IMG/VR virus record: IMGVR_UViG_3300007559_000409
Location: 1 to 23,912 of that record
Direction: 5' to 3' (one strand)
DNA from: a virus
DNA: 23,912 bases
Shown: positions 1 through 20,843 of the stretch, piece by piece
Numbering within the stretch: position 1 is the first letter of the stretch
How the letters are laid out: each line of letters starts with the position of its first letter
The notes under the pieces: generated by a model
The model's input: only the letters and a program-made list of their open reading frames with translations
What the model was told of the DNA's origin: nothing
Databases searched by the model: none
Made by a program: the position numbers and the translations under genes

Positions 1-576
1 ACGGATGAGTCTTCGTCATTAACTGTACAGTTCAGTAAATTAATGAAAGTGAGACAAGTCATTGCGGAAGAAAAAATTAAAGATACTATAGAATTAGCCG
101 AAAATATTATCGAACAAGATAAAAAGGTTATTATTTTCACAAATTTTACAGACACGTTAAATAAGATAACAGAACACTTTGGAAAAATCGCAGTAAGTTT
201 AGACGGGTCAACATCTAAAGTTGCAAGACAATATGCTGTCGACCAATTCCAAGAGAATGATAAAATCAAAGTATTTGTTGGTAACCTAAAAGCTGCGGGG
301 GTTGGTTTGACCTTAACTGCGGCTGAAGCGGTTATTATGAATGACTTATCATTTGTACCTTCAGACCACTCACAAGCTGAAGACAGAGCGTTTCGTTATG
401 GTCAAAAAAATAATGTGTCGGTCTATTACCCAATCTTTGAGAATACGATTGAAGGTGCAATTTATGATATCTTAATTAAGAAAAAGAATATTTTTGAAAC
501 TGTTATGGGAGATAACATATTAGATAAAGGTGATTTTATTGAAGAAGTTATGAACCGTATCAACAAACGAGTATAA
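1..576 (+). CDS. SNF2-family helicase, C-terminal part (5' end outside window)
   Basis: The frame is open from base 1, so this is the C-terminal 191 residues of a longer gene; the ATG at 43 is internal. The visible part is a helicase C-lobe of the SNF2/SMARCAL1 type. It has a KVIIFTNF strand, a DGSTSK motif followed by a QF helix, the motif V region AAGVGLTLTAA, and motif VI QAEDRAFRYGQ, which matches the family QAxxRxxRxGQ signature including the arginine finger. SNF2-like ATPases translocate on double-stranded DNA; in phages they are linked to replication, recombination or fork remodelling. The ATP-binding lobe is not visible, so activity cannot be judged. The next gene starts 38 bases downstream in the same direction. 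A UvsW-type helicase is possible, but motif VI favours SNF2. Confidence 0.85.
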   Translation, partial: TDESSSLTVQFSKLMKVRQVIAEEKIKDTIELAENIIEQDKKVIIFTNFTDTLNKITEHFGKIAVSLDGSTSKVARQYAVDQFQENDKIKVFVGNLKAAGVGLTLTAAEAVIMNDLSFVPSDHSQAEDRAFRYGQKNNVSVYYPIFENTIEGAIYDILIKKKNIFETVMGDNILDKGDFIEEVMNRINKRV

Positions 577-588
577 TTTGAAACTTCC

Positions 589-611
589 GCTTATTTATAT
601 ATAAAATAAGC
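589..611 (+). promoter_or_regulatory. Perfect inverted repeat containing a TATTTATA element, before the SOD-fusion gene
   Basis: Eight-base arms GCTTATTT and AAATAAGC flank a 7-base ATATATA centre. TATTTATA at 592-599 lies 15 bases before the ATG at 615, matching the spacing at 2154 and 8672. No T-run follows, so an intrinsic terminator is unlikely. A promoter, operator or leader hairpin is more plausible. No Shine-Dalgarno sequence is present. Confidence 0.35.
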
Positions 612-614
612 CGT

Positions 615-2153
615 ATGAAAAAACTAGAAGAGAAGATTAATGTAATCTCTGAAGAAATTAAAAAAGTAGAAAAAGAGGCTGTCAAAGAAAACCTGATAGT
701 CGAAATGAAAAAAATCGGTATTGAGAGGCTTCCCTACTCGTACTCAGCCCTGAAAAAATTTATTGACGCGGAAACTATGAATTTCCACTACAACAAACAC
801 TACAAAGGTTATGTTGAGAAATTAAATGACGCGTTAAGTAAAAAGAAGTATGGTGATTTAGAGTTGGAAGAAATTATCAAGTCAATCAGCCGTTTTGATA
901 AGACAATTAGAAATAATGCCGGTGGAGCTTTTAACCACGCATTGTTTTGGAAGATGTTATCACCTAAAACACAGACACCAAATGGTGAAGTCCTAAAACA
1001 AATCAAGAAAGACTTTAAAAGTTTAACAATTTTCAAAAATAAATTTGAGGAAGTTGCTCGTGAAAGATTTGGTTCTGGTTGGGTTTGGTTGGTATTAACC
1101 AAAAGAAACCGATTAAAAATTATCTCAACACCTAACCAAGACAACCCATTAATGAATGTTGTTGAAGATGGTGGTTATCCCATTTTAGGTTTGGACTTAT
1201 GGGAACACGCCTACTATCTAAAATATAGAAACAAAAGAGATGAGTATATTAAAAACTTTTGGAGTTGTGTAAATTGGGATTTCGTTAATAAACTCTACAC
1301 TATGAGAGTTGAGAAGAAAATTAACGAGGTACAAATGTTAAAAACGGTTCTTAGTGAGGGTAAATCTGAAAGATGTAGTCGTGAGGAAACCGAAGCAATT
1401 AGAATGGTGTTTAATATCAACCCAAGAGTTAAGGATGTTTTTAAAGTGTCGATTAATAAAATACTTAAAGATGTCTTCCCCGACAATTATTACAATATGA
1501 ATGAATTTGCCAAAGGTGAAATGGCGGGGGTTTATAATTTAGAAGGTGAGGGTCGTTCTGTTATCAACAAACTAAACACTAACTACAGTTGTTTTTGTGT
1601 ATTACTAAATGATGTTAATACTGTGTTGGATAAAGCAAATCAACCAAAAATACAGATGGTTGGTCTGACACCGGCAGAACAATTAAATGAAGTTAAAAAA
1701 TTGGTTAACATCTTAGACAAATATAAACACAGAATTTTTAACAGAGAATCTGCAACGTTTCAAAATATCATGAGAATATTAACTCAGACCGATAGTTGGG
1801 GACAAAAAAGAGAAGACGTTACCGTTGATATCCTTAAAAAGAAATTTGGTAAAGACAATGTTAGAGCAATTGGTAAATTAGGTAGTCGTGAAGATATGAT
1901 TGGTGGTATTGATTGTGAAATTGATGTTGCAGGTACAACCCATACCTCACAAATTAAACCGTTTACAGGACTTAAAAAGATTGATGGTCTTATCCATATC
2001 TATGGTTCGGCTAACGTTAAAAAATATTCAACTGATTGGTTAATCTTTACAAAGAACAATAAAGATGTTGTTGTTTTTAGAAATAAAAACACCAAGATTA
2101 TTGATGGACAATACGTTTTCCCTGAGAAAGATTTAATTTATTCTTTGAATTGA
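615..2153 (+). CDS. Mn/Fe superoxide dismutase fused to a nuclease-like C-terminal domain
   Basis: This is a 512-residue protein in three parts. Residues 1-37 form a charged, probably coiled-coil leader. Residues about 38-230 are a full iron/manganese superoxide dismutase, which converts superoxide to hydrogen peroxide and oxygen. All four metal ligands are present: His58 in FHYNKHY, His108 in NHALFW, and Asp194 and His198 in LDLWEHAYY. Gln175 in STPNQDNPLM and the NNAGG run at 101-105 favour the Mn or cambialistic type. Residues 231-512 are unrelated to SOD. Near their end, GGIDCEIDV (430-438) followed by QIK (446-448), with Glu400 in a preceding helix, resembles a PD-(D/E)xK or Mrr-type nuclease core with Gln in place of Glu. 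The SOD call is firm; the nuclease call is inference from a short motif. The gene lies between helicase and neck-protein genes. Ordinary SODs are about 200 residues and stand alone. Confidence 0.88.
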   Translation: MKKLEEKINVISEEIKKVEKEAVKENLIVEMKKIGIERLPYSYSALKKFIDAETMNFHYNKHYKGYVEKLNDALSKKKYGDLELEEIIKSISRFDKTIRNNAGGAFNHALFWKMLSPKTQTPNGEVLKQIKKDFKSLTIFKNKFEEVARERFGSGWVWLVLTKRNRLKIISTPNQDNPLMNVVEDGGYPILGLDLWEHAYYLKYRNKRDEYIKNFWSCVNWDFVNKLYTMRVEKKINEVQMLKTVLSEGKSERCSREETEAIRMVFNINPRVKDVFKVSINKILKDVFPDNYYNMNEFAKGEMAGVYNLEGEGRSVINKLNTNYSCFCVLLNDVNTVLDKANQPKIQMVGLTPAEQLNEVKKLVNILDKYKHRIFNRESATFQNIMRILTQTDSWGQKREDVTVDILKKKFGKDNVRAIGKLGSREDMIGGIDCEIDVAGTTHTSQIKPFTGLKKIDGLIHIYGSANVKKYSTDWLIFTKNNKDVVVFRNKNTKIIDGQYVFPEKDLIYSLN

Positions 2154-2175: not shown

Positions 2176-3297
2176 ATGTCAATTATTTCAGAACCAGAAA
2201 GAAGTAAACTTTACACAAGGGTAAGACATGTACTTGGTGCACCTTTACGTTCAGTTGAGTTAGAAGACGAACAGATGGATACTCTTCTTGAGTTCGCCAT
2301 TGACGACTATTCCCAATATATTCAAAATTGGTTAATTGAATCCCAATGGTCAAACCTTTGGGGTCTTAATCTTGAAACCCAATCTTTGGCTCGTGCATTC
2401 GTAACAAAGAGTTTAGATTTTGAAACTCGATACACTTACGCGTATTCAAAAATTGTTGGTTTACAAGCTGGTGGTGATTGGGTATTGAAAAAAGATTTTA
2501 TTAATTTGGTTCCTAACCAACAGATTTATGAAATTCCTGCGGGAAGAGAATTAAATGAATTATTGTGGTTTACACCTTCAGAATTAAATAATATGTTATT
2601 TGACCCGTGGTCATTCGGCGCGTTAGGTGGAGCAGGTCTTGGTGGTCCTGCTGGTTATTCACAAATGGGTATGTCAGGTTCTTACTTTATGATGCCGGCA
2701 TTTGATATGTTATTGAGAATGCAAGAGATTAATATTCAGAGAAGAATCATTGCGGGCGAATTAACTTATCGTGTTACAGCATTACCTGAAGGTAAAAAGG
2801 CGATTCATTTAATGAACACACCAGGTGGTAAGTTTGACTTTGGTAACGCAGAAATGATGAAAGGTAAAGTGTGGTATTGGTATTACGATGTAGGTCCTGA
2901 TGATAGAGATAAGTGTCTTAAGAACAACCCTGATATTATTAAAATGCCGTCAGACGTTCCTTTAGATAAAATGTCTTGGGTTGATTTAAATAACCCCGCA
3001 CAACAGTGGGTTAGAAGATACTTTATCGCAACCTGTAAAGAAACATTAGGTCGTGTTAGAGGTAAATTCTCGGGTAATATCAAAACACCTGATTCTGAAT
3101 TAACGATGGATTACCAAAGTTTATTAACTGAAGGTAAAGACGAGAAATTAAAGTTGATTGAGGAGTTGACAGGTGCTGAAGGTACTTTAACCAGGTTAAA
3201 ACCTGATAAAGTTATGGAAAGAGAGGCTCTATTAGCTGAAAACCTAAACAAACAACTTAAGTTCAGAGCAATGCCTCGTCAAATATATGTCATCTAA
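2176..3297 (+). CDS. gp13-like neck (head completion) protein
   Basis: The 373-residue protein resembles the T4 gp13 neck protein family as seen in marine T4-like phages. These proteins close the portal after DNA packaging and take part in tail attachment. Supporting features are an N-terminal acidic helical region (ELEDEQMDTLLEFAIDDY), a Gly-rich loop at about 148-168 (GALGGAGLGGPAG), a Trp/Tyr-rich strand (KVWYWYYDVG), and a C-terminal run of the form WVRRYFIATCKETLGRVRGK followed by a charged helix. It is longer than T4 gp13 (about 309 residues); the Gly-rich loop accounts for some of this. There is no Shine-Dalgarno sequence. The next gene overlaps by 11 bases, consistent with translational coupling in a virion-assembly operon. 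The family call rests on overall pattern, with no catalytic motif to anchor it. Confidence 0.6.
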   Translation: MSIISEPERSKLYTRVRHVLGAPLRSVELEDEQMDTLLEFAIDDYSQYIQNWLIESQWSNLWGLNLETQSLARAFVTKSLDFETRYTYAYSKIVGLQAGGDWVLKKDFINLVPNQQIYEIPAGRELNELLWFTPSELNNMLFDPWSFGALGGAGLGGPAGYSQMGMSGSYFMMPAFDMLLRMQEINIQRRIIAGELTYRVTALPEGKKAIHLMNTPGGKFDFGNAEMMKGKVWYWYYDVGPDDRDKCLKNNPDIIKMPSDVPLDKMSWVDLNNPAQQWVRRYFIATCKETLGRVRGKFSGNIKTPDSELTMDYQSLLTEGKDEKLKLIEELTGAEGTLTRLKPDKVMEREALLAENLNKQLKFRAMPRQIYVI

Positions 3298-3679
3298 TAT
3301 GAATAGTATGAGAAGAAATTTTGGTAGAAAACTTGTTAGTGACAAGTTATACAATAGTAGAGATTATGAAACAATTATGAGTGCAAAACTAAGTCAAGAA
3401 GTTGAATTAACTAAAATTGTTAATACGTCAAACTACAAAACAAACGGTGAAGAATTTATCGTAGTTAAAGATATACCTGAGTGTAGAGTTATATTAAACT
3501 CTGAAACTACTGAGCATGTCATCATTAAAGCTTTAACAAAAGTAACAATAGCCCCTGATAAAGGAGCTATTGATGAAGATTGGGATGAGGTTGATATCGA
3601 CAGGGGTGCTTGCGTTGAATTCTATTTTATTAGTGGTAATTGGTATATTGGTTCATCCGATGGTATCAAAATGTCTTAA
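3287..3679 (+). CDS. Small structural-type phage protein, function unknown
   Basis: The protein has 130 residues. I do not recognise a family with certainty. The N-terminus is basic (MRRNFGRK) and the rest looks like a beta-rich domain ending in VEFYFISGNWYIGSSDGIK, a tail often seen in phage virion proteins with small beta-barrel domains. It starts inside the neck-protein gene, overlapping it by 11 bases; ATGs at 3299 and 3308 are alternative starts. The position after gp13 is where gp14 sits in T4, but this protein is about half the size of gp14 and does not resemble it. Its stop codon overlaps that of the convergent DNA polymerase gene by 4 bases. Confidence 0.6.
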   Translation: MSSNMNSMRRNFGRKLVSDKLYNSRDYETIMSAKLSQEVELTKIVNTSNYKTNGEEFIVVKDIPECRVILNSETTEHVIIKALTKVTIAPDKGAIDEDWDEVDIDRGACVEFYFISGNWYIGSSDGIKMS

Positions 3680-6471
3680 ATAATATGTTCTTCCCACCCT
3701 TCTGAAGCTAATTCGTAAATATAGTTAGGGTCAATACCACGTTTGCCCCAATATTTTAATTCACCCTCACTAATATCTAACACGTCTTCTTGTAATCTAT
3801 CTTGGTCACCTTCTTTAAAAGGAACACCATTTATCAATTCACATTGTTCCTTAGTGAAAAAACCTCTTTCTTCAGGGTCAGTAACTAAAAGGTTTTCTCT
3901 AATTTCTTCTTTGAATACAACGAGTAGGGGTTCGATACGTTTATTAAATGTTACAATTGCTCTTGGAACATTGTAATCTCCCTTCATATCAGGATTATTC
4001 TCAATCTCGTTTTGGTTTAACTTATAACAATTGATTCTAACCATAGATTCCATATTATCACTAGGTTCTTTACCATAAACAGATGTGTAATATTCAATGT
4101 CGTCTTTTCTCCACCCACTTTTTAGTTTGTTAACCTTTTGGACATCACCCTGTGATGCTTTGGTACCATTATTTACATAATAGATAACATCACCCAACTG
4201 AACATTTAAGTCATGTTGTATTGCTAGTTCCATGTGAGCCATACGACTCATAAGTGAACCACCCTTAGTCTTTTGAGTACAACGGAACTTATAGTCGTCT
4301 AATGATAATTTTACTTTAGCTCGTTGAGCAATCTTCATTAACGGAATCTCCTTGTTAAAGATTTTATTTAGGTATTCATAATACCACTCAATAAAGTCCT
4401 GACCTTTACCCTCAAGTAATTGTTTCACCCCTTTATCTAAGAAGTCCTCGATATACAACGGTAGTTTCTTTGATTTAATGGTATTACCTGTAAGTTTGAT
4501 TTTACCACTTGCTTCCATAACCGCATAGTTCTTACGAGCCAAGTTAATACACGAAGGCCAAGTTCCATCAGTATCTAACGCCATCTCACCTCTCATGAAT
4601 AAGTCGTTGAACTCAGCAACGTCAGCGTCGTCACCTGTATATTCTTTACCTTCCTTAACCTTCCAGTTTAATCCTTTACCGATGTAACGACGATTCTCCC
4701 ACCCTTCAGGTTTAGAGAAGTTCACACCGTCCGTATCCATCACAAGAGGGGTATATCCACGTTTCATAAAGAACTTAATCATCTGACGAAGATATTGACG
4801 ACCTGTACAGGTAATCTGTTCACCCATATACATGTCACCCCAAGCAAATACCTGTGGAGCGGACAATGCACCGAACATCGAGTTGATGAAGATTTTAATC
4901 GGTAATTGTTTACGGTCATAAGAAAGTGACTTCTTCTTATCCTTATCATACCACTCAGATGCTAAGTTCTTATACATGATACGAGCGTTACGGAAGTAAG
5001 ACAACATTCCTTTCATACCACCTAAAACGTCACACTTAGGGAATACATCGTGAACCAACTGAATAGATGGGTATAGTGAAGAGTAGTCAAGTTTTAATAC
5101 GTTTCTCGAGTATCCCACTTTAAGTAGTCGTGATAAACCACCAACAAACTCAGTCTTTTCTTCTTTTTGTGGAATCGCCAATTTGTGTTTGTAACTCCAC
5201 GCCAACATAATCATTTTCCATAGAGTCGCGGTACCCATTGTACTTACACGCTCATATGTCGTTGGTACCATCGATGCGAGTAGAAACGTACCCTGATTGA
5301 ACTCGTCATCCACAGTCAACGTTTCTTCTAAGTCATCGTCAAGATATCTCTCTACGATGTTATCACCCGTAACTTTTATATAAGTACCGGGAAATTTCTT
5401 ATCTAAGTCTTTGAACTCAGGTCGGTCGGCCCTTTTATATTTTCCATTTTTAACGTTTAACCAATATTCGTTCTTATCTCTATACATAGACCCGATGTCT
5501 TCATGAGGAATGTATACACGGTCGGCAGCTTCAGCATCAATATACTGAGTAATGTACTTCAAACCTGCAGACTTAATACTTGAGTTGATTGCCTGAGCTC
5601 TACGAACTGAGTGGATAATATCAATTACGTTATAACCCCAAAGGTTAGTTTGAGTAAAACGCTCAACCTCGTTAGCCAACTTTAACAATCCGTCTTTTTG
5701 GGCGATTGGTCTTTGAGGGTTTAGTGATTTAGCGATACGCTTGATATCCAAATTAAGAGCCTTACATCTCTCGAAAATCCAATACCAGTCGAAGTTCGCC
5801 GAGTTGTATCCTCCGATAATTGAAGGTTTAAGTTCATCAATGATTCTGAAGAACTCAACAATCCCTTTTCTTTCTTGGTCTTCGTCAGCACATTCAATAA
5901 CTTTTTGGAATCCTTTATTGGTTTTGATTCCAATCATAAAGATACGACCGTCTTTTGGTTCTAGAGCGGTCGTCTCTAAGTCGAATCCGAGTCTGGTGAT
6001 ATCATTGTATTCTTCATAACCCTTGAACAATCGTTTCTCTCTTGAGATGAGGTATTGTTCTACAGGTGGTAATACCATTATCTTATCTTTGGCCTTATCT
6101 GACCACGGGTCTAATCCACCATCACGGAAGAATTGGATAAGTGTACGATAACCTTTAAGTGATTTAACCATATACTTAAGACCATTCTCAAGTCGTTTAT
6201 CACCTTTGGTTTCTAACTTATCGATAACGATACCATATTTGGTCATCGCTTCTTTCTGTAAATCTTTGGATGTTTTGTAAAAGTTAAGACCTCGTAAATC
6301 ACCAACCCATGCAAATGCGGTGAATGAATCTTTCTTAATAACTTTACCCTGACCAGGGATTTCTTTGATTTTGTAAATTGAGTCCGTAACATAATCGAAC
6401 TCGACCGCGACAATATGTTCTTCGGGGTCATTACCTTCGAGGAAGGATTTAATTTCTTCTTGACTTATCAT
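3676..6471 (-). CDS. Family B DNA polymerase with 3'-5' exonuclease (gp43-like)
   Basis: The 931-residue replicative polymerase is close to T4 gp43 (898). The exonuclease motifs are present: Exo I as D164-L-E166, Exo II as N223 with F227-D228, and Exo III as Y376-x3-D380. The polymerase motifs are complete: motif A DYSSLYPSI starting at D462, motif B K526-x3-N530 continuing SMFG, motif C D579-T-D581, and the KNY element of the KxY motif. The tyrosine usual in motif B (YG) is phenylalanine here. Both proofreading and synthesis should be active. I see no typical clamp-binding peptide at the C-terminus, which ends GWEEHII. The gene is the last of the minus-strand block, 109 bases after the sugar kinase gene. 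The 5' leader has a TATTTATA element and a small hairpin. No Shine-Dalgarno sequence precedes the ATG. Confidence 0.97.
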   Translation of the reverse strand: MISQEEIKSFLEGNDPEEHIVAVEFDYVTDSIYKIKEIPGQGKVIKKDSFTAFAWVGDLRGLNFYKTSKDLQKEAMTKYGIVIDKLETKGDKRLENGLKYMVKSLKGYRTLIQFFRDGGLDPWSDKAKDKIMVLPPVEQYLISREKRLFKGYEEYNDITRLGFDLETTALEPKDGRIFMIGIKTNKGFQKVIECADEDQERKGIVEFFRIIDELKPSIIGGYNSANFDWYWIFERCKALNLDIKRIAKSLNPQRPIAQKDGLLKLANEVERFTQTNLWGYNVIDIIHSVRRAQAINSSIKSAGLKYITQYIDAEAADRVYIPHEDIGSMYRDKNEYWLNVKNGKYKRADRPEFKDLDKKFPGTYIKVTGDNIVERYLDDDLEETLTVDDEFNQGTFLLASMVPTTYERVSTMGTATLWKMIMLAWSYKHKLAIPQKEEKTEFVGGLSRLLKVGYSRNVLKLDYSSLYPSIQLVHDVFPKCDVLGGMKGMLSYFRNARIMYKNLASEWYDKDKKKSLSYDRKQLPIKIFINSMFGALSAPQVFAWGDMYMGEQITCTGRQYLRQMIKFFMKRGYTPLVMDTDGVNFSKPEGWENRRYIGKGLNWKVKEGKEYTGDDADVAEFNDLFMRGEMALDTDGTWPSCINLARKNYAVMEASGKIKLTGNTIKSKKLPLYIEDFLDKGVKQLLEGKGQDFIEWYYEYLNKIFNKEIPLMKIAQRAKVKLSLDDYKFRCTQKTKGGSLMSRMAHMELAIQHDLNVQLGDVIYYVNNGTKASQGDVQKVNKLKSGWRKDDIEYYTSVYGKEPSDNMESMVRINCYKLNQNEIENNPDMKGDYNVPRAIVTFNKRIEPLLVVFKEEIRENLLVTDPEERGFFTKEQCELINGVPFKEGDQDRLQEDVLDISEGELKYWGKRGIDPNYIYELASEGWEEHII

Positions 6472-6580: not shown

Positions 6581-7333
6581 TTAGGGGGTTGCAACACCTC
6601 TTTTTGAAACTACGATTGCTGCCATGTCATTTGCAAACTTTAATGATGTTGGGACATCGTTAGTTTCGTGGTACTTTAAAATAAACGATGCTGTAAATGT
6701 GTCACCAGCACCACTAACGTCAATAGTTTCTTTAGGGTTATTACTTGGGTAAACTACGTGGTTATACATACAACCCGCAGAACCTAATGTTACAATAAAC
6801 TTTTCGGGATACAACTCAACAAGTTCTTTGTTGTTTTGATACTCGGTTTCATTTAGTTTAATGAAATCGATATCCATAATCATAGACCCTGACAATTTTT
6901 TCTTAGTATCCATAATTGTCAATTTTGCAAGTTTTGATATTTCGTCAATAATATTAGAGTCTAAATAACCTTTATTGTAGTCACTAATAATCACAAAGTC
7001 AGATTTACCAATAGTTTTCTTTTGTCTTGGTGATAAGAAGTTTAGTGTGTCACATTTTTCAATTTCACCGTCATCAACACGGGTAATCATTTGATTACTT
7101 TTCTTTTCTACAAAACGAGTCTTTTCAATTTTAGTGGATTGGTGCCAATGAACTACCTCAATATCTGACGATAACGCATTTAAGTTCTCAACAACATTAC
7201 CCGCCATACCTTTATTCTCTTTCGTTTCAATTGGGTTTAAGACTGGAACAGGCGCTTCAGGACATAAACGAGTTATTTTACAATAGACAAATCTGTCGGT
7301 ACCCAATTCACCGACTACTAATGCTTTTACCAT
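6581..7333 (-). CDS. PfkB-family sugar kinase, HldE-N/RfaE1-like (heptose 7-phosphate kinase-like)
   Basis: The 250-residue protein belongs to the ribokinase/PfkB fold and specifically resembles the kinase half of HldE (RfaE), which phosphorylates D-glycero-D-manno-heptose 7-phosphate at O1. Supporting motifs are GELGTDRF near the N-terminus, the HldE hallmark [11 protein letters not shown] (21-31; TSRISPEAPVPV-like in bacteria), [13 protein letters not shown] (sugar site), ISDYNKGYL (HldE-like DYxKG), and the anion-hole motif DVSGAGD ending in the catalytic base Asp211. It is shorter than bacterial kinase domains (about 320 residues), so loops are trimmed. The gene overlaps the nucleotidyltransferase gene by 26 bases; together the two correspond to a split HldE. 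Substrate specificity is inferred; another seven-carbon or related sugar phosphate is possible. Confidence 0.82.
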
Positions 7334-7709
7334 AATTTATAATATTAGTTGATGAATAACCATCTAATTTATTGAAGTAGATAATTTCTTTTGAGTATTC
7401 AGAACCTATAACTTCTTTGTTTTTATAATCAGACCCGATTACCAAATAGTCGGGTTCCCATAATCTAATTTGTTCAGATAATTCAAAATCAGTGTCAAAT
7501 GTAACCACATCACCAACACCAATAATTCTTGATAAGAAATATTCTCTGTCAATACAAATGTTAACAGGTCTATCAGAACCCTTCAGTTGTTTCACTCTAT
7601 TATCAGTATCAATACCAACTCTAAGAGTACCAAGTGAAGATGCAAATTCTAAGAGTTCTAAATGACCCCTATGTAATACATCAAAAGTACCGTTTACCCA
7701 AACTTTCAT
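7308..7709 (-). CDS. Cytidylyltransferase-fold nucleotidyltransferase, HldE-C/RfaE2-like
   Basis: This 133-residue protein matches the adenylyltransferase half of HldE, which joins heptose 1-phosphate to AMP to give ADP-heptose. It has the nucleotide-binding motif [15 protein letters not shown] at 7-21 (HxGH-type, here HRGH), the GSDRPVN segment that contacts sugar phosphate, a [17 protein letters not shown] strand-loop, and the C-terminal SSTNII motif (STTxII in relatives). Length equals that of a stand-alone domain. Its start overlaps the cupin stop by 4 bases (ATGA) and its end overlaps the kinase gene by 26, so the three genes are probably translated as one unit. The specific nucleotide and sugar are inferred from family resemblance. 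Confidence 0.85.
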
Positions 7710-8092
7710 TTTAATACGTCACCTAACCAAACTCTATGTGAATCAGAATCAAAGTGTTCTGTTGAAACTTCAAAAATGGTTCCTTCAGTCAACGCTTCTA
7801 ACTGATGAGGTTGCCCTGGTAATTGTCTTACAGTATCACCAACTTTTAAATGTCGTTCTTGGACCTCACCTTTTTCGGTATCAATCCATCTATAGATAAA
7901 CTCACCTTTATCCACATACCAAGTTTCATCTTTAATCATGTGGTAGTGCATTGAGAATTTACAACCTTTCTTAAACACCAACAACTTCCCACAATACAAC
8001 TCGTTATTTTCAAAAATAACTTCATGACCCCAACCTTTGGGGACATTACACTCCTTACACTCAAGGGCATTATAAACAATAGGTTTTTCCAT
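7706..8092 (-). CDS. Cupin-domain protein, probably sugar-related
   Basis: The 128-residue single-domain cupin has metal-binding residues in the usual places: HYH at 49-51, Glu56, and His96 in PGQPHQLEA. GxxFSMHYH and VDKGEFIY also fit the cupin 1 motif, and a typical EHFDSDSHR segment follows the second motif. Such small cupins accompany nucleotide-sugar genes as isomerases, epimerases or binding proteins, and resemble the cupin part of type II mannose-6-phosphate isomerases. It is the first gene of a three-gene unit with the HldE-like nucleotidyltransferase and kinase (4-base overlap). The reaction cannot be read from sequence. A role in preparing the sugar phosphate is inferred from its neighbours. 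Confidence 0.75.
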
Positions 8093-8698: not shown

Positions 8699-10381
8699 TT
8701 AACTTTCCTTTCTTAAGGAACCATCATAAAAGTCAAATCTGTCATGTTCTGTTGGTGTCATTAGTAATATACCTGATGTTAAATTACCTTTTCTAGTTTC
8801 CTGAAACATGTAACTCATCCATGTTTGTTCGAATGGGTGTGGCCATTTTGTGGTTAAAAACATCTTCTTATTACCTTTACGAGTAACTACTTGAGGCCAG
8901 TTACAATAATATACCTCACCTAAAGCATATGGAACACCTGAATAAGATTTAATTTGTTTAAATTCAGTTTTAGGTGCGTTGGGGTCTAATCCTTTTTCGG
9001 GTAATTTTTTATTATTTGGCCAAAGTTTTTCCCTAATATCTTGTGGTACATTATACCAACTCCATTGTGTTGAGTTGTCACCATAAAACTCGGTAAAGTT
9101 AAGTTTTAAAAAGTCTAAGTTTTCTTTCTGAGTAATTGATATTGATTTCTTGTATAGGTTTTTGGTAAATCTATTAAAACCATTCTTACAAACTTCACCT
9201 TGTTTTGGGTAAAAGAACATATCATCTTCGAAGAAATAATAAAAGTCAAAACCTTGTTCTTCGGCGTGTTCCGCAATCCATTGTCTACCACCACAGATAC
9301 CTAAATTATCTTTTTTAATGTGAGTAAAACCATATTCATTACATAACTCAACATACCTTTCAGTTGTAGTTAAGTCAGTTGAATTGTCTAATAAAAACTT
9401 AGTTGGTTTGTTAATGAAATCATCATCATATTGGTACATTGAATTAATTAATGTTTCAAATTGTTTTGGACTATTAAATGTGATAACATAAAGACCAACA
9501 TTGTTTGGGTTTGTAAATGATAAATCTTCTTTAAGGATTTCTGATGTATAGTTTTTAAGATTCTCAAAAAACGGCCAAACCAAACCATTACCCTCAATCT
9601 CATATCTATGAATAATGTTAGGATATTTGTGAGTCAAAATAGTGAACAAACACTCGTCAGCACCCATTAGATTTTCATTAAGAGTGTTTTCCATCACATT
9701 ATAGTATAGGTTATTAATCTCATGTACCCTATCTCTGTGACCACCAAAGAATCCTCCACGACAAACATAATCCACGTAATCAACGCCACAATGTCTTGCC
9801 ATGGCTCTTCGTTCAAATCCATGAATTTCATCGTTTGATGTGTATGGGTATGAAATGTGTGTAAACTTATTTTCGTTTTTTACAATATAATTGTCTAAAT
9901 TATCCAGCACTTTATCATTATGGAAATAACCCGTCCCAACAGTATTTGTTAAACCGCCATCAATCCAAAAGAAGTAATCGCTATTGAATGGGTTAACAAT
10001 TGCCGAGTCGTTTAACATAAACATTTTTGTAAACATCATCGGGTTATAATATTTGAGAGCCGCTTGTGGTGATTCGGATAACCAACCGGCTAAGTTCCTC
10101 CACTCAGGGTTATTCCTAATATCATCAATTTTACTAAAAAATGGATTCCATGTCTCAAAGTCTTGGACATCTTTAATGAAAATCTTAGTAGGTTTATTAC
10201 CTCTAATTTCAATAACCTCTTTCTCTAAATCTTTAGGAATCCAAATACACATTTGAGCGTCAGTTTCTAACATCTCAAAAAACTTTGATTTATAATAATT
10301 GAAGTCTCTTTGAGCCCATCCGTTTAGTTCACCTCTACCTAAATCCCAAAGTCCTGTTACTATCGTTACGTTTTTATTCAT
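8699..10381 (-). CDS. Two-domain glycosyltransferase: HtrL/YibB-like plus GT2-like
   Basis: The 560-residue protein has two putative glycosyltransferase domains. Residues 1-280 resemble the HtrL/YibB (WlaTC-like) family: TIVTGLWDLGRG at the start, YYNPMMFTKMFML, then NPFNSDYFFWIDGG (130-143), where the IDGG acidic motif sits at the presumed nucleotide-sugar site. Residues about 295-420 start a GT-A fold (VGLYVITFNSPKQFETLINS) with a DNSTD segment and the acidic motif FEDDMFF, as in GT2 enzymes. The remaining C-terminal part is Trp-rich and may bind acceptor. No signal peptide or membrane segment is visible, so it should act in the cytoplasm of the infected cell. The start is one base after the stop of the upstream glycosyltransferase gene. 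Sugar and acceptor are unknown. Confidence 0.8.
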   Translation of the reverse strand: MNKNVTIVTGLWDLGRGELNGWAQRDFNYYKSKFFEMLETDAQMCIWIPKDLEKEVIEIRGNKPTKIFIKDVQDFETWNPFFSKIDDIRNNPEWRNLAGWLSESPQAALKYYNPMMFTKMFMLNDSAIVNPFNSDYFFWIDGGLTNTVGTGYFHNDKVLDNLDNYIVKNENKFTHISYPYTSNDEIHGFERRAMARHCGVDYVDYVCRGGFFGGHRDRVHEINNLYYNVMENTLNENLMGADECLFTILTHKYPNIIHRYEIEGNGLVWPFFENLKNYTSEILKEDLSFTNPNNVGLYVITFNSPKQFETLINSMYQYDDDFINKPTKFLLDNSTDLTTTERYVELCNEYGFTHIKKDNLGICGGRQWIAEHAEEQGFDFYYFFEDDMFFYPKQGEVCKNGFNRFTKNLYKKSISITQKENLDFLKLNFTEFYGDNSTQWSWYNVPQDIREKLWPNNKKLPEKGLDPNAPKTEFKQIKSYSGVPYALGEVYYCNWPQVVTRKGNKKMFLTTKWPHPFEQTWMSYMFQETRKGNLTSGILLMTPTEHDRFDFYDGSLRKES

Positions 10382-10382
10382 A

Positions 10383-11330
10383 TCAATTAAATTTTAAACC
10401 AACATTAAAGCCTTCGTTATATGTTATTCTATAAATGTTTTCACCAATTCTAATCATCATAACCAAGAACTTTCTCATACCATGTGCGGGGTCGCCCATA
10501 GTCTCAGTGTCAACTCTAATGTTTAATTCTTTTCTTTCGTTTTTATTTAAATTATCAATCAATTTTTGAGTCACATCAAATTGTTGTTGAGGGTAATTGT
10601 CCGGATACCCCTCGTCCAATTGGATGCCCGTAGAACCAAATAAACCATTTAAAATCTCAACATCTTTATTCTTAAAGAAGTCAGGATTTATGTAAGATTC
10701 TATTGGTAAGTTTGTAAAGTAAGGATTCCACTCAAAATGGAAACATTCCTTACCCTTATAATGTCTTGCATGATGTAACCAATTTTCGTAATACCATCTA
10801 TCGGCATGTGTCGGTTCAGGATTTTCTCTAACAAATGATAGGTTTGCCCACCAAAAGTTACCCCAATACCAATTACCAACACAAGTTAATCCACAAGTAT
10901 CGTATTCGTCTAAATCTGAAACACATTGTGTGTAATTATCTATCAGGTGTGACTCCATTGCATTTCTCCACAACTCAACACCTTCAACTTTCCACTCGGA
11001 TATTTCTTTTGTAACACGATTTTTATAATTGTTGGTAACTCCTTTAGCGTGAAAATAAAAAACTTTACCATCATGTTCTTGTGATAAATCCCACACTTTT
11101 TTAATACCCCAATATTCATATGTGTTATGAGTGGTTTTAAATAAGTTAACTTTACCAATACCATCAAATAATTCATCAATACCTTCGTATTTACCTTCAG
11201 GGTCAACACAAGATACCTCCATTTGGTCACACCATTGAAATAGTCCTGTTGACATAATTCTGTCAAGTTGGGACTTAACAACTTCTTGATAGTTACCGGC
11301 ACAAAAAATATGGTAAACAATTACATTCAT
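10383..11330 (-). CDS. Putative glycosyltransferase, family unassigned
   Basis: This 315-residue soluble protein resembles virus-type glycosyltransferases with a YFHAKGVTN segment and a CGLTC...WYWGNFWWAN segment (about 147-164), followed by HADRWYYENWL. In related proteins this Trp/His-rich stretch forms the GT-A active-site region. I see no clear DxD motif, so I cannot place it in a CAZy family. Residues after about 240 look like a small separate domain with charged and beta-rich sequence (RVDTETMGDPAHGMRKF). The gene overlaps the GT34-like gene by 4 bases (ATGA) and ends one base before the HtrL-like gene, so all four upstream glycosyltransferase genes appear to be co-translated. The main alternative is a sugar-binding protein without catalytic activity. 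Confidence 0.6.
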   Translation of the reverse strand: MNVIVYHIFCAGNYQEVVKSQLDRIMSTGLFQWCDQMEVSCVDPEGKYEGIDELFDGIGKVNLFKTTHNTYEYWGIKKVWDLSQEHDGKVFYFHAKGVTNNYKNRVTKEISEWKVEGVELWRNAMESHLIDNYTQCVSDLDEYDTCGLTCVGNWYWGNFWWANLSFVRENPEPTHADRWYYENWLHHARHYKGKECFHFEWNPYFTNLPIESYINPDFFKNKDVEILNGLFGSTGIQLDEGYPDNYPQQQFDVTQKLIDNLNKNERKELNIRVDTETMGDPAHGMRKFLVMMIRIGENIYRITYNEGFNVGLKFN

Positions 11331-12613
11331 TTCTTTTTGATAATCGCGTAAATAGAATCTTCCCTATCATTTGAAATGGAGATTGATTCTATATTGTTAA
11401 TAAATGACTCCCATCTATCAGTTTTATAGTCTGTTGTTGGGTTACCGTCGATAATACTATGTAACATGTCTAAACAGGTTGTCTTTTCAGGGTCACCCCA
11501 TCCGAACACCGCTTTTTCAGGCATCCTACATTCGATTGATGTTTGTAAATCCTCAATAACCAAATAACCACCAGGTTTAACATTCTCAAATAAAATCTGT
11601 GCGGTTATTTGTAAATCTTTCATTCTATGTGAACCATCATCAATTATAACGTCATACATAAATCCGTTACTAGAAAATTCATACAACGATTCTTCGTTTG
11701 ATTGGTCGACATTAAACATCCATACCCGTTCTAAATCAGATTGGTAATTGTTGATATCAATACCGTGAATCAAACCTTCAGTGAAAAAATCATTCCACAC
11801 TCTTAGTGACGCACCGTCAAGAACACCAATTTCCAAAATATCACATTTTTCTTGATATGGTTGTAATAGTTTTTGATAAAATCTATTATAGTAATTGTGT
11901 AGATATTGTTTATCGGTACCATAGTGACCACCAATGTCATTTAAGTTTTTGTATGTAATCCCGTCTTCATTTTCCATTTTTGTTTCCATACTAATATTAA
12001 ATTTTTTATTATGTATTACATCAATTGTTCTATTTGGTGTTAAACCATAAGAAAACGCATGGAACACAAATTTCTCATCACCATATTCACGAGCGTTGAT
12101 GTCGACATTTGTAATTATTTTAAATTGTGACCTGTCCGTTTGTCTTTCATACCACAAACCAATACATGTTTGGTCATGCCATAAACCTTCTTTATATTTT
12201 GGGAACTCCTCACAGATGTCCCACCATTCATTTAAAAACTTTTTAGTGTATTCATTATTTTTAACCATCATAACACCAGCATTAACCAACGATGGTCCGT
12301 GGTCTTGTGTCATTAAAATACTAAAATCATCTGTAATAAATTCCTCTATTTGTCTTGAATTATTACAGAAAATTGCGTCAATGTCTAAAAACAAAACGTA
12401 TTCAGAATCAGGAAACCTTTCTAACATTTCTCTAATTAGATGAGGTTTGTACCAAGTGAATGAACGACCAGGTATTTTATCCTTTATTTTATTTGGGTCT
12501 TTTTCTACATAGTAGTTATAACCATTGTCCTGACAATATTTTTCGTTGATTCTTTCTGCGTACTCCCCATATGAAACATTTGGAGTATAAAATTGGCAAA
12601 CTGTTATATTCAT
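11327..12613 (-). CDS. GT34-like glycosyltransferase fused to a class I methyltransferase
   Basis: The protein has 428 residues and two domains. Residues 1-200 resemble the GMA12/MNN10 (GT34) galactosyl/mannosyltransferase group: a FTWYKPHLIREML helix, the catalytic D77-I-D79 in VLFLDIDAIF, NAGVMMVKNNE, and a late histidine in FVFHAFS that would complete metal binding. Residues 225-428 are a SAM-dependent methyltransferase: glycine motif LEIGVLDGAS (259-268), HGIDI with its acidic ribose-binding residue, DVIIDDGSH (321-329), and GGYLVIEDL (348-356), as in CmcI/macrocin-type O-methyltransferases. The pairing suggests that a transferred sugar, or the sugar before it, is O-methylated. It starts 3 bases after the GT60 gene and overlaps the next gene by 4. 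Substrates are unknown. Confidence 0.82.
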   Translation of the reverse strand: MNITVCQFYTPNVSYGEYAERINEKYCQDNGYNYYVEKDPNKIKDKIPGRSFTWYKPHLIREMLERFPDSEYVLFLDIDAIFCNNSRQIEEFITDDFSILMTQDHGPSLVNAGVMMVKNNEYTKKFLNEWWDICEEFPKYKEGLWHDQTCIGLWYERQTDRSQFKIITNVDINAREYGDEKFVFHAFSYGLTPNRTIDVIHNKKFNISMETKMENEDGITYKNLNDIGGHYGTDKQYLHNYYNRFYQKLLQPYQEKCDILEIGVLDGASLRVWNDFFTEGLIHGIDINNYQSDLERVWMFNVDQSNEESLYEFSSNGFMYDVIIDDGSHRMKDLQITAQILFENVKPGGYLVIEDLQTSIECRMPEKAVFGWGDPEKTTCLDMLHSIIDGNPTTDYKTDRWESFINNIESISISNDREDSIYAIIKKK

Positions 12614-12616
12614 ATC

Positions 12617-13861
12617 TTATAGGTGATTCATTATTCTATCACACCAACCTTTAGAAATTGAGTGTGGCCATACAACCCAATATGATGGTTTAACTGTGGT
12701 TTGGAAAGTTCTCCATATTTTACCATATCCATCAGGGTCAGTCATTATTCTGTTTATTTCATTAGTGTCCGCATCTTGACGGAAAATGGTTTCATCGTTT
12801 GCATCGTGAAAAGCTACCACCCAAAAATCATAATCTTTTTCGGGAACTAATTTATAATCAAGGTCGATACAATGTTTGAAGATTGTTGCAAAACTTGCTT
12901 TCCATTCATCCTCAGTTTCAAACATAACCGGATTAGGTGGATAGTTTTTATCTAAGGTGTATTGTTGGACTGAACGATTGTCAAAACGGATACCAGCATA
13001 AATTTCATAATCTCTTAAAGTTCTAATAGGTCCAAATCCGTATTTACCCATGTCCATTGTACCTTCACCATCCATACCGAATAACTTTCTATTCTTTTGG
13101 TGTGAACGAACATTCTTATTACCCCAATCAGGGTCATCGTCCCATTGTTTTGTTCTTCCGTTACGAGTGTATTCATGCCAAACTAATGTCTTATGTGGGT
13201 GGAATAAATCATAACCCCATGTATAAGCTCTAACGGCAATTGAAATCTCTTCACCGTGGAAATAGAACTCAGGGTCGTGTTGTACCTCTTCTGAGAACTG
13301 ACCTAAAGTAAAACAGAAGTGAGCAGAATAGAATCTCGCGGGGATTGGCTTTTTAAGTTTCTCCCAACCAGGAATTGTTTCAGGTAAAAAGAATACAGCG
13401 CCCTCAGGAATAAATCGGTCAAACACCATTCTCCACGGCTCTTTAACTCGTCCTGCAGGGTCATTTTCAGGATTAAAGGATGATACATACCCCGTCAATA
13501 ATGGTTTCTCAAAACCGTCCTTTTGGAGTTGTTTAATCATTTTAATGAATTCGGAATCCCAATTCTTTTCGAATCTCATATGAGAGTCAATTTGCATTGT
13601 ATACTCTTCACCGTCATATAAAGTTTGGGTTAGGTTTCTTGCCCAACAAACGCCTTTAGATTCTGTGTAAGGTACATCGATAACTCTAAATCGTTTATCG
13701 TCTTTATATTCCTCTAAAGAATCAAAACCATCTTCAGGGTGATATTGTCTACAAATACCAAATCTAATATTTTTCGGGTTTTTAGCATTTTCTAAAATTG
13801 ACTTGATTGTCTTAACCAATTCGGGGTCGCGATATGACGCTATTTGAATAAAAATTCTCAT
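12617..13861 (-). CDS. GT60-type glycosyltransferase (polypeptide GlcNAc-transferase family)
   Basis: The 414-residue enzyme closely matches the GlcNAc domain (GT60) family. Eukaryotic members add alpha-GlcNAc to hydroxyproline of Skp1 in Dictyostelium or to Thr of mucin-like proteins in Trypanosoma. Diagnostic segments are IQIASYRDPELVKTI (5-19), FGICRQ (34-39), the metal-binding D92-S-H94 in QIDSHMRFEKNWD, the RFYSAHFCFT strand, and HGEEISIAVRAYTWGYDLFHP (202-222). The DxH motif resembles that of polypeptide GalNAc-transferases. No membrane anchor is visible, unlike Golgi members, so it should be cytosolic. The gene lies directly after a Thr/Pro-repeat protein gene. AAAGGA about 7-12 bases before the ATG is the only Shine-Dalgarno-like sequence I noticed. 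GlcNAc as donor sugar is inferred from the family. Confidence 0.85.
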   Translation of the reverse strand: MRIFIQIASYRDPELVKTIKSILENAKNPKNIRFGICRQYHPEDGFDSLEEYKDDKRFRVIDVPYTESKGVCWARNLTQTLYDGEEYTMQIDSHMRFEKNWDSEFIKMIKQLQKDGFEKPLLTGYVSSFNPENDPAGRVKEPWRMVFDRFIPEGAVFFLPETIPGWEKLKKPIPARFYSAHFCFTLGQFSEEVQHDPEFYFHGEEISIAVRAYTWGYDLFHPHKTLVWHEYTRNGRTKQWDDDPDWGNKNVRSHQKNRKLFGMDGEGTMDMGKYGFGPIRTLRDYEIYAGIRFDNRSVQQYTLDKNYPPNPVMFETEDEWKASFATIFKHCIDLDYKLVPEKDYDFWVVAFHDANDETIFRQDADTNEINRIMTDPDGYGKIWRTFQTTVKPSYWVVWPHSISKGWCDRIMNHL

Positions 13862-13928
13862 ACATTAATCCTTTTGTGGAAAAAGTAATGGATTTTTAAA
13901 TAAAGTTAATAATTAGTGATTACTATTT

Positions 13929-14411
13929 TTAAAGAGTTGGTGTTGGTGTTGGGCAAGTACCACTTGAACACGGGGCACCTATTGTAACACCCACTTCAGG
14001 TTCAACAGAAGGTGAATTACCACAATAATATAAAGTGGTACCGGAGTAGATAACGGCCTCTAATACGGAACCATCACATAGGTTTAAACTAAAGTCATAG
14101 TCCAAAGTATTCATTGAGTTATCAAAAACAATACAACGACAATCAGACACTATTGGTGTTGATGTAGGTGTAGGTGTTGGTGTCGGAGTTGGGGTTAAGA
14201 ACGATAGTGTTTGAAAAGTATTACAATAATACGCATCCTTAATAGATACTAACATCTGATTAACATTCTGTAATGGTGGTGGTACCGTCAAAGTTACGGG
14301 AAATGTTGTCACATCAATACCCACAATATAACAGAAGGTATTGGTCATATCACAAAGACTAATTTGAAATGGTGGCGTACCTTCCGCCGAATATATAACA
14401 ACTGATTCCAT
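13929..14411 (-). CDS. Thr/Pro-repeat, Cys-containing phage protein (probable tail or fibre component)
   Basis: I start at the ATG at 14411; an in-frame TTG at 14417 would add only two residues. The 160-residue protein has a beta-rich N-terminus (MESVVIYSAEGTPPF), a TPTPTPTPTPTST tract at about 73-85, a second beta-rich Cys-bearing segment (YYCGNSP, APCSSGTC), and a C-terminal PTPTPTL. The layout of small Cys-containing modules joined by Thr-Pro linkers recurs in the partial protein at the right edge, so both may belong to one fibre or virion-surface family. There is no signal peptide. It is the first gene of the minus-strand block, 67 bases before the GT60 gene. The linkers are plausible O-glycosylation sites (inference). 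I do not recognise a specific named family. Confidence 0.7.
   Translation of the reverse strand: MESVVIYSAEGTPPFQISLCDMTNTFCYIVGIDVTTFPVTLTVPPPLQNVNQMLVSIKDAYYCNTFQTLSFLTPTPTPTPTPTSTPIVSDCRCIVFDNSMNTLDYDFSLNLCDGSVLEAVIYSGTTLYYCGNSPSVEPEVGVTIGAPCSSGTCPTPTPTL
14154..14195 (-). repeat. Thr-Pro dipeptide-coding tract
   Basis: This stretch encodes alternating Thr-Pro (TPTPTPTPTPTSTP) in the middle of the 13929-14411 protein. On the plus strand it reads as repeated GGTGT(A/T) units. A shorter copy ends the same gene at 13932-13946. Confidence 0.8.
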
Positions 14412-14504
14412 TATCAATAAATATATGGTGATTATGTTTACCTTAAATAGAAAATAGACTAGAATTAATCTGTAATTTTTAAGGGTTTCCCTTATTATTG
14501 TCCT
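14412..14504. promoter_or_regulatory. Divergent intergenic region between the two glycosylation operons
   Basis: These 93 bases separate the first gene of the minus-strand block from the first gene of the plus-strand block, so promoters for both should lie here. TATATTTATTG precedes the minus-strand ATG by 4 bases, a one-mismatch TATTTATA variant. A 6-bp stem with 3-base loop (TAAGGG-TTT-CCCTTA, 14480-14494) sits 10 bases before the plus-strand ATG. I could not identify a convincing -10/-35 pair for the plus strand. Confidence 0.45.
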
Positions 14505-15452
14505 ATGAAAAAGATTTGTTTGGATTTATCCGAGTGTAATGCGTTAGGGGATAGTCTATGCTCAACACCCGTGATTAAAAAATTGTACGAGGCGTACAAT
14601 TCAAAAATAGTTGTTATCACCAAACATACTGAATTATTTACCAATAACCCATACGTAGAAAAAGTTTACAACTCATCAGTAATAAACTTAGATTTTATTA
14701 GGAAGGACGATAACTTTATCGTTCATAATTCATTTTACGAAGGTGGTAGAAAGAACGCTCAAGGTGTGGAATATAAACACAATCGTATGGACATTCGTCA
14801 ATATCATGCAGTCAAACTTGGGTTCATGTTGACCAAAGATGAGATGGGTCTTGATTACATTCCAGACGAATACGAACCCATTGAAGGTTTACCTGAGAAG
14901 TATGTTTTAATTCATCCCGTTCAGAATTGGCCGAGTAGAACTTGGGATGCTGAAAAGTGGATGAAATTAACATCTGAGTTAAATAAAAAAGGAATTAGTG
15001 TTGTATCTATTGGAAAGGATTCAAGTGAGGTTGGATTCTTTAATGTTAATAAACCAATATTTAATTTTGAGATTGAGGACGGAATGAACCTAATGAATAA
15101 GACAACTTTGAGTCAGACTTGGCATTTAATTAATAAGTCACTTTGTTTTATCACTATGGATTCAGGTTTATTACATTTGGCGGGAACTACAGATGCCCAC
15201 ATCATCCAATTAGGTAGTTCAATCAATCCTGAGTTTAGAGCACCGTATAGACACGGTAATCAAGAATATAAATACCATTACGTTGGTGGTGGTTGTAGTT
15301 TGTTCTGTGCTTCAGATATGAAACACGGAGTTAAAGAGTGGGGCGATATTCAAGGTGTTCCACCACTAATCGGTTGTTTAGAAGGTAAAAAGACATTTGA
15401 GTGTCATCCTTCAGTAGAACAAACACTTAATAAAGTTTTAGAATTAAATTAA
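14505..15452 (+). CDS. GT9 heptosyltransferase-like glycosyltransferase
   Basis: The 315-residue enzyme has the GT-B fold of the ADP-heptose heptosyltransferase (GT9) family. Motifs are NALGDSLCSTPVIKKL (12-27), in which Asp16 aligns with the catalytic Asp of WaaC-type enzymes; IHPVQNWPSRTWDAEKW (136-152), which matches the nucleotide-binding region; and FITMDSGLLHLAG (215-227), then HIIQLGSS. The C-terminal part carries four cysteines (264, 268, 291, 300) ending in FECHPS, reminiscent of the metal finger of the TibC-like enzyme downstream. The gene leads the plus-strand glycosylation operon, with 2 bases to the next gene. GT9 enzymes usually build the LPS inner core; here the acceptor could be a glycan or a protein. 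ADP-heptose as donor fits the HldE-like genes at 6581-7709. Confidence 0.85.
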   Translation: MKKICLDLSECNALGDSLCSTPVIKKLYEAYNSKIVVITKHTELFTNNPYVEKVYNSSVINLDFIRKDDNFIVHNSFYEGGRKNAQGVEYKHNRMDIRQYHAVKLGFMLTKDEMGLDYIPDEYEPIEGLPEKYVLIHPVQNWPSRTWDAEKWMKLTSELNKKGISVVSIGKDSSEVGFFNVNKPIFNFEIEDGMNLMNKTTLSQTWHLINKSLCFITMDSGLLHLAGTTDAHIIQLGSSINPEFRAPYRHGNQEYKYHYVGGGCSLFCASDMKHGVKEWGDIQGVPPLIGCLEGKKTFECHPSVEQTLNKVLELN

Positions 15453-15454
15453 AT

Positions 15455-18166: not shown

Positions 18167-19149
18167 TGAAAAAATTAATAGTTATTGGTTCATATCCTAA
18201 CACACCAAAAAAAGAAGAGGTACTTAAATCAGAAATACAATCCCTAAAAGAGATTGGTTTTGATTTTATGTTAGTTAGTCATTACCCAGTATCTACCGAA
18301 ATACAAAACATGGTGGATTATTACATTTATGACAAAAACCAAACTTTAACACCGTTAGATAAAACAACTTATTATTGGTTCAAGACTGATATTTTTATGT
18401 TACGGGTTAATAATTCGAGACACGCATTACCCATTTGTCAAAACATGTTTAACGCATTTAAATTAGCGGAAATTAAAGAATATGATTTTGTTTTCTTTAC
18501 TGAAAACGATAACATCTTTTCTAAAGAAGATTCTGTTAAATTATCTAATTTAGTTGACATGGCGATTTCTGAAAATAAAACCGGATTATTTTTTAAACCT
18601 CACAATTATCAAGACAATTACTCTAAAGTTTATGAAACTCAAATGTTTGGGTTACAACCAAAAAGGTTTAATGAGATTTTTAAATTACCATTGACAGGTG
18701 AAGAATTTTTTTATAACCCGGATTACCCTGTTAGTTTAGAATTAGGTTTTTACATTTCACTTAAAGATTTTGAAGATGAGTTTATGATTGTCGACGAGCA
18801 TTCATATAACTATTTCACTAATAGTGAGATTAATATATTCAGAATGGAACACTTCATTGTTGATTTATTATATAACAGCACCAATGAGGACGAACCTGTA
18901 TTATTTTTCCAAAATAGAAACAATGGTGATGTGAAAGAATGTCGTTTGGTTGCTAAAGTTAATGATGAGGTTATTGCCGACACATTAATTCATCCTGGTG
19001 TTTGGTCTTATCAAGTCTTCAGATATGAAAACCAAAGATTACGTATTGAGGTCTATATGGATGGTACACTAGAGATTATTAGGGATTACACATTAAACGA
19101 CACACTTAAAAATAACATAAAAGATAACGGTATTATTGATTTTTATTAA
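18166..19149 (+). CDS. GT-A-type glycosyltransferase with beta-sandwich tail, paralogue of the neighbour's middle domain
   Basis: The protein has 327 residues. Residues 1-220 are paralogous to the middle domain of the preceding 903-residue protein: LIVIGSYPNTP at the start and LVSHYPVSTEIQNMVDYYIY at 36-55, with about 14 of those 20 residues shared. An acidic motif FFTENDN (110-116) is a likely metal site. Residues about 230-327 look like a beta-rich accessory domain (PVLFFQNRNNGDVKECR, then a YMDGTLEI strand), similar in position to the linker in its paralogue. It shares TAATG with the upstream stop and lies 2 bases before the next gene. No signal peptide is visible. I infer glycosyltransferase activity from fold-type motifs and context; the CAZy family is unclear. 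Confidence 0.7.
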   Translation: MKKLIVIGSYPNTPKKEEVLKSEIQSLKEIGFDFMLVSHYPVSTEIQNMVDYYIYDKNQTLTPLDKTTYYWFKTDIFMLRVNNSRHALPICQNMFNAFKLAEIKEYDFVFFTENDNIFSKEDSVKLSNLVDMAISENKTGLFFKPHNYQDNYSKVYETQMFGLQPKRFNEIFKLPLTGEEFFYNPDYPVSLELGFYISLKDFEDEFMIVDEHSYNYFTNSEINIFRMEHFIVDLLYNSTNEDEPVLFFQNRNNGDVKECRLVAKVNDEVIADTLIHPGVWSYQVFRYENQRLRIEVYMDGTLEIIRDYTLNDTLKNNIKDNGIIDFY

Positions 19150-19151
19150 TT

Positions 19152-20258: not shown

Positions 20259-20286
20259 AGTTTAAATTATAATTAAAAAAAAAGAT

Positions 20287-20835: not shown

Positions 20836-20843
20836 TTAATAAA

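Follow-up and report, generated by a model that had tools for sequence, protein, structure and literature searches.

The window, i.e. the complete stretch of 23,912 nucleotides analysed from the IMG/VR virus record IMGVR_UViG_3300007559_000409, opens with the end of a helicase gene, followed by a gene that joins a superoxide dismutase (SOD) to a predicted nuclease (Table 1). The open reading frame runs from ATG to stop without an internal stop codon and codes for 512 amino acids. An initial annotation had described the C-terminal 280 residues as one nuclease-like region. The in-frame join was correct, the single nuclease was not: a linker, a helical domain and a nuclease domain follow the SOD. 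The same gene order, SNF2 helicase, fusion gene, gp13-like neck gene, small gene and a family B DNA polymerase gene on the opposite strand, was present in all complete loci examined. T4 gp13 itself is a member of the neck protein family (phrog_211). The model of the full-length protein (512 aa) had a pLDDT of 77 and a pTM of 0.51, with residues 19-45 and 234-251 as low-confidence segments; it was weaker than a separate model of the C-terminal module, hence the packing of the domains was left uninterpreted.

Table 1 Features of the fusion gene and its surroundings in the window
Feature	Position	Strand	Basis and remarks
SNF2-type helicase, C-terminal part (cut by the window start)	1-576	+	Helicase_C E 1.6e-16; phrog_62 E 1.5e-44
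Leader/promoter-like element TATTTATA (candidate)	592-599	+	conserved TATTTAT upstream of the fusion gene
SOD-nuclease fusion gene (nuclease predicted)	615-2153	+	512 aa; open reading frame and IMG/VR homologues
N-terminal extension, residues 1-30	615-704	+	low model confidence; last residues (L/I)-x-E, E30
MnSOD domain, residues 36-229	720-1301	+	Pfam, MnSODs of the PDB, invariant residues; H58 at 786-788
Linker, residues 230-253	1302-1373	+	(L/I)-x-E at E238 (1326-1328) and E248 (1356-1358)
Helical domain, residues 254-390	1374-1784	+	alignment; invariant motif E310..GRS..N..NTN
PD-(D/E)xK nuclease domain (predicted), residues 391-512	1785-2150	+	AlphaFold2 model, Hjc match, invariant residues
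Nuclease residues	E400 1812-1814; D433 1911-1913; Q446 1950-1952; K448 1956-1958	+	
Neck protein, T4 gp13-like head-tail adaptor Ad2	2176-3297	+	phrog_211 E 2.3e-10
Small conserved gene of the syntenic block	3287-3679	+	synteny
Family B DNA polymerase, closes the syntenic block	3676-6471	-	Pfam, PHROG, synteny

Both Pfam domains of a Mn/Fe SOD were detected, Sod_Fe_N in residues 37-116 (E 7.5e-23) and Sod_Fe_C in residues 122-226 (E 2.1e-39), the scores being 134 and 81 bits compared to cut-offs of 20.9 and 27. The SOD is complete and holds all four metal ligands proposed initially, H58, H108, D194 and H198. Alignment to a solved MnSOD located also the outer-sphere residues H62, Y66, Q175 and E197, with Y66 as gateway tyrosine and Q175 within the motif NQDNP as the MnSOD-type glutamine. 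None of these eight residues varied among the 130 fused homologues. The nearest solved structures in a sequence comparison with the PDB were MnSODs (E about 1e-58). Judged from its sequence, the fused SOD is of the MnSOD type with a predicted active site in which nothing is missing. The closest cellular SODs, 50-54 % identical, originate mostly from Bacteroidota, mainly Chitinophagales. The phage SOD has the ligands and outer-sphere residues of a Bacteroidota-type bacterial MnSOD (PF00081/PF02777), but adds the N-terminal extension and the C-terminal fusion and carries GGA before the second histidine ligand, where the bacterial MnSOD has GGH. None of 80 cellular relatives examined extended beyond the SOD domain. 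An inheritance of the fusion from a host gene was rejected, as none of these cellular SODs has a C-terminal extension and relatives of the module were absent from genome_contigs. Stand-alone SODs were found in other jumbo phages, of Pseudomonas and Vibrio. A relative of the neck gene occurs in Flavobacterium phages, and together with the nearest SODs this makes a Bacteroidota host likely. A match to the Tunturiibacter phage Tunturi_5 (E 10) had an unrelated context and was taken as chance.

The C-terminal module (residues 254-512) was modelled with AlphaFold2 from an alignment of 33 sequences to a pLDDT of 89.3 and a pTM of 0.83. The best structural match to residues 391-512 was the Holliday junction resolvase Hjc of Archaeoglobus (Z 8.6, rmsd 3.4 Å over 100 residues), followed by NhoI (Z 7.4), a SPARDA subunit (7.2) and the homing endonuclease I-Ssp6803I (6.8), values to be read with the note of the structure-comparison tool that Z 7-8 is common even for unrelated models. 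Foldseek placed I-Ssp6803I first among the PDB entries with an E-value of 0.028, all others being at 0.03 or weaker. Since these E-values are weak, the fold was assigned from the agreement within the match list, nearly all top matches being PD-(D/E)xK nucleases, and from four invariant residues. The pattern D433-x12-Q446-I-K448, recognized already in the initial annotation, was present in 157 of 157 loci, and so was the glutamate E400 of an upstream helix, which had not been listed before. In the model, residues 391-512 have a PD-(D/E)xK fold and not one unrelated to nucleases, and nuclease activity is predicted. The suggested Mrr type was retained for the D-x12-QxK motif only: the closest fold is Hjc, and neither Pfam nor NCBIfam gave a Mrr profile match to the protein or the module. 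Equally, the likeness to Hjc is one of fold, with about 10 % sequence identity and no Pfam match of the module; the archaeal resolvase has the same core PD-(D/E)xK fold, but E-x-K in place of Q-x-K and no additional helical domain. Pfam, PHROGs, NCBIfam, PADLOC and PDB yielded no convincing profile match to the module. The helical domain has the invariant residues E310, G313-R-S315, N318 and N321-T-N323 and obtained no fold assignment. A helical domain with the NTN motif, followed by a PD-(D/E)xK domain and without a match in Pfam, PHROG or NCBIfam, defines a family of predicted nucleases.

The fusion was searched for in metagenomic phages by two scans of IMG/VR. The best 80 of 593 relatives were taken from the scan with the full protein; nearly all aligned over residues 1-512 with 57-99 % identity and they came from many metagenomes. 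Together with a second scan, for which the C-terminal module alone was the query, 157 loci were listed, some of them overlapping. A SOD was present in 130 of these loci (82 distinct proteins) and absent from 27 (12 distinct proteins). The fusion is real and occupies one syntenic place; full-length copies at this place on 80 contigs from many metagenomes ruled out an assembly or frameshift artefact. Among 33 representatives below 88 % identity, pairwise identity averaged 77 % for the SOD and 51 % for the C-terminal part. Close pairs had median dN/dS ratios of 0.044 (SOD), 0.083 (helical domain) and 0.089 (nuclease), thus each of the three parts is under purifying selection. Many giant-phage genomes carry the fusion, and selection on it is strong. 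Phage SODs are known, and phages often encode PD-(D/E)xK proteins (PMC7824862); for their fusion in one gene, no description was found in the literature searched. A 501-aa protein of an uncultured Caudovirales phage (UniProt A0A6J5L953) matches the whole module by structure (E 2.3e-28, 35 % identity) and is named only 'superoxide dismutase'; this protein was already deposited, apparently unremarked.

The 27 loci without SOD carry the module alone at the same syntenic place. In a quick tree of the module, two changes account for the SOD-less state. One SOD-less clade, the L114 type, is nested within the SOD-bearing phages with 99 % support, and its protein reads ...INEMKKIEIEKL|KSIISEGKSERC, the N-terminal segment being joined to the module by an in-frame deletion of the SOD. 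The nested position and the in-frame removal at the junction indicate a loss of the SOD in this clade; for the second clade, the L137 type, gain or loss are both possible. A relocated SOD gene was not present on three contigs of 272-318 kb from SOD-less genomes. The retention of the module everywhere, the SOD-less loci and the in-frame deletion characterize the nuclease as the core gene and the SOD as a dispensable rider. These loci bear also on the initial proposal of a redox- or metal-sensing switch, in which the SOD controls the nuclease. Apart from the physical fusion nothing speaks for such a switch, and it is extremely improbable: SOD-less versions keep an intact nuclease, the joint between SOD and module is disordered in the model, and a complete catalytic set is not that of a degenerate sensor. 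With respect to the likewise proposed role in superinfection or anti-defence, PADLOC gave no match for the full protein.

Paralogues of the module retain the two-part architecture (profile-profile probability 96 %, E 1.3e-9, 203 columns). In one relative, a copy (L254:5105-6061) is part of the head operon, flanked by the head protease and scaffold genes. A second paralogue of 375 aa (L253:4806-5933) was found in a SOD-less phage, among numerous small proteins that begin with MKIIITE-like sequences. An uncultured marine phage encodes a protein of 1113 aa (BFVD A0A8D9CCA0) in which the entire module recurs as a distant copy (TM 0.79, 23 % identity); its length would fit a module-helicase fusion. 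The head-operon paralogue was sporadic, present in 4 of 77 capsid loci. Such a distribution, and the first rank of I-Ssp6803I in Foldseek, would suit a family of mobile modules, one copy of which, a domesticated free-standing homing endonuclease, settled permanently at the helicase-neck locus and acquired a SOD. This origin is very unlikely. Unlike I-Ssp6803I, the module is not borne by an intron and its locus is fixed, all parts are under purifying selection, and the site was occupied in all related phages examined, an observation biased by the retrieval of the loci through the fusion gene itself.

The relatives are T4-like in capsid, portal, tail sheath and head protease, and their contigs extend up to 322 kb, which identifies the phages with the fusion as a large group of uncultured, T4-related jumbo phages. 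The gene is preceded by a conserved leader: of 70 homologous loci, 65 had TATTTAT in the 55 nt ahead of the gene, compared to 0.022 occurrences expected per 55 nt. In a relative, the element also precedes the genes for neck protein, head protease, head-operon nuclease, terminase, baseplate and endolysin as well as a DnaB-like helicase gene; it was absent before the polB, SNF2 helicase, portal and capsid genes. In this phage group, TATTTAT may serve as a late promoter or leader. Within the window the element recurs at 2154-2161, and in the upstream regions of relatives it stands, on both strands, 11-25 nt ahead of many open reading frames, mostly structural ones. The fusion gene is best explained as belonging to the structural class of T4-related jumbo phage genes, with the nuclease and the helical domain as core product and, in most lineages, a MnSOD fused at the N-terminal side.

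A structural gene beside the neck gene recalls T4 gp4, a TnsA-like nuclease needed for head maturation. The module may do the job of this head-completion nuclease, with the SOD as a passenger. The gp13-like neck gene adjoins in all complete loci examined, the leader is putatively of the late type, and a search of eight large related contigs for gp4 family members gave a match in just one. This lone match, in G001, was rejected as a head-completion gene, being a 294-aa gp4/TnsA-related endonuclease open reading frame in an intein-like insert of a dUTPase-like gene (L255:3376-5269). T4-like jumbo phages usually carry gp4 (PMC7824862), and T4 gp4 belongs, like the module, to the PD-(D/E)xK superfamily (PMC1189080). 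Still, the replacement is quite unlikely. Apart from superfamily and structural-gene setting, no sequence or profile similarity was detectable: hhalign gave a probability of 0.1 % against the single T4 gp4 sequence, the PHROG search no phrog_218 match, and the module has twice the size of gp4. The related contigs may also be incomplete, or their gp4 may have diverged.

The T4 head protease gp21 cleaves after L/I-X-E (PMC9026906). Four such motifs were kept in at least 95 % of 61 non-redundant fusions, ending at E30, E197, E238 and E248. E197 is part of the buried SOD active site, the other three lie in the low-confidence segments of the model. The first, with L/I at P3 and E at P1 in 61 of 61 proteins, closes the extension ahead of the normal SOD start; the motifs at E238 and E248 were present in 59 and 60 of the 61 proteins, and the P2 position varied freely. 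Five neighbour proteins had L/I at P3 in just 9 of 71 conserved glutamates, and by chance three of three would be obtained with a probability of about 0.002 in this post hoc test. Among all proteins of one relative the N-terminal enrichment of the motif was weak (50 % versus 42 %), therefore the argument rests on conservation, not on frequency. SOD-less proteins retain the E248-type motif, and the L114 protein retains both junction motifs. A gp21 homologue was identified outside the window in a relative of 322 kb (L254; 34 % identity to T4 gp21, E 1e-22). The major capsid protein of this relative has an (L/I)-x-E motif at E60 which aligns with E65 of T4 gp23 and was conserved in 77 of 77 sequences. 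In T4, short N-terminal targeting sequences that end in a gp21 site bring internal proteins into the head and then into the host, and foreign nucleases have been carried experimentally into T4 heads by targeting peptides (PMC9026906; PMC3012670; PMC7411985). Residues 1-30 are a proposed capsid-targeting propeptide, E238 and E248 proposed cleavage sites of the head protease.

Conserved sites of the T4 protease type between the parts suggest that these are possibly packed, cut apart and delivered together. At a probability of roughly 0.4, we consider the fusion as a late, capsid-targeted precursor whose cleavage yields SOD and nuclease for delivery alongside the genome. We infer capsid entry, cleavage, delivery, a DNA substrate and a benefit of the SOD in the following course. 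The N-terminal extension would take the protein into the prohead, where a gp21-type head protease would cut after (L/I)-x-E at E30, E238 and E248 and free mature SOD and mature nuclease inside the capsid. Both would enter the host together with the genome, the SOD removing superoxide around incoming or replicating DNA and the nuclease acting on DNA, either the host chromosome or branched DNA from recombination. Only tentatively do we suggest an injection of both enzymes along with the genome, by which protection against superoxide and the processing of DNA would begin at the moment of infection. The fusion resembles the T4 internal proteins and Alt in the N-terminal segment with a terminal L/I-x-E and in the gp21-type protease of the phage group; it differs in that two enzyme domains form one precursor, a putative virion protein. 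The homologous nuclease between protease and scaffold in a head operon and the leader common to structural genes count for the precursor. Several observations count against it. The motif is short, and E30 opens also a conserved block, EMKKIGIEKLPY, so that its conservation may be structural. The N-terminus of the fusion has no obvious likeness to the repeated protein tags of a relative. The leader stands also before the DnaB-like helicase gene and does not precede the portal and capsid genes, the head genes lie outside the window with the protease known from a relative, and a packaged nuclease would have to spare the phage DNA.

As the motif is short and its test was post hoc, the gp4-like role keeps standing beside the precursor, and so does an uncut bifunctional enzyme in the infected cell. 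Here, an auxiliary SOD would shield replicating DNA from superoxide, while a Hjc-like nuclease would serve recombination and repair in cooperation with the SNF2 helicase. Hjc has indeed the closest fold, the linkage to the helicase gene is strict, and eight large related contigs had no RuvC and a single sub-threshold match to endonuclease VII. Freshwater phage SODs have been reported as oxidative-stress genes, the presumed role of phage SODs being to mitigate such stress (PMC6802176). But the low identity to Hjc and Z values common for unrelated models weaken the resolvase assignment, one clade dropped the SOD and kept the nuclease, and the linker motifs are left without explanation, which makes the uncut enzyme rather unlikely. 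If the precursor is packaged and cut as outlined, these phages would inject an antioxidant enzyme with their DNA, and whether superoxide bars phage infection would become testable.

The protein tags mentioned above belong to the related phage G014 (L257-L272, e.g., L258:17247-17621), in which about 35 otherwise different proteins have near-identical N-termini such as MKK(I/V)(I/V)RLTESDLxxIVKRIINE or MK(F/Y)LITES(Q/K). They include (L/I)-x-E and possibly act as a general signal for capsid targeting or sorting. Downstream of the syntenic block, the window has sugar-kinase-like, nucleotidyltransferase and cupin genes in a row (6581-8092, minus strand; PHROG matches), a heptose/nucleotide-sugar cassette, and beside it many glycosyltransferase-like open reading frames (8699-22985). 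Long Thr-Pro repeats (TPTPTPT) are encoded on the minus strand at 13929-14417 and 23439-23912, the latter cut by the window end; these are possibly tail or surface proteins.
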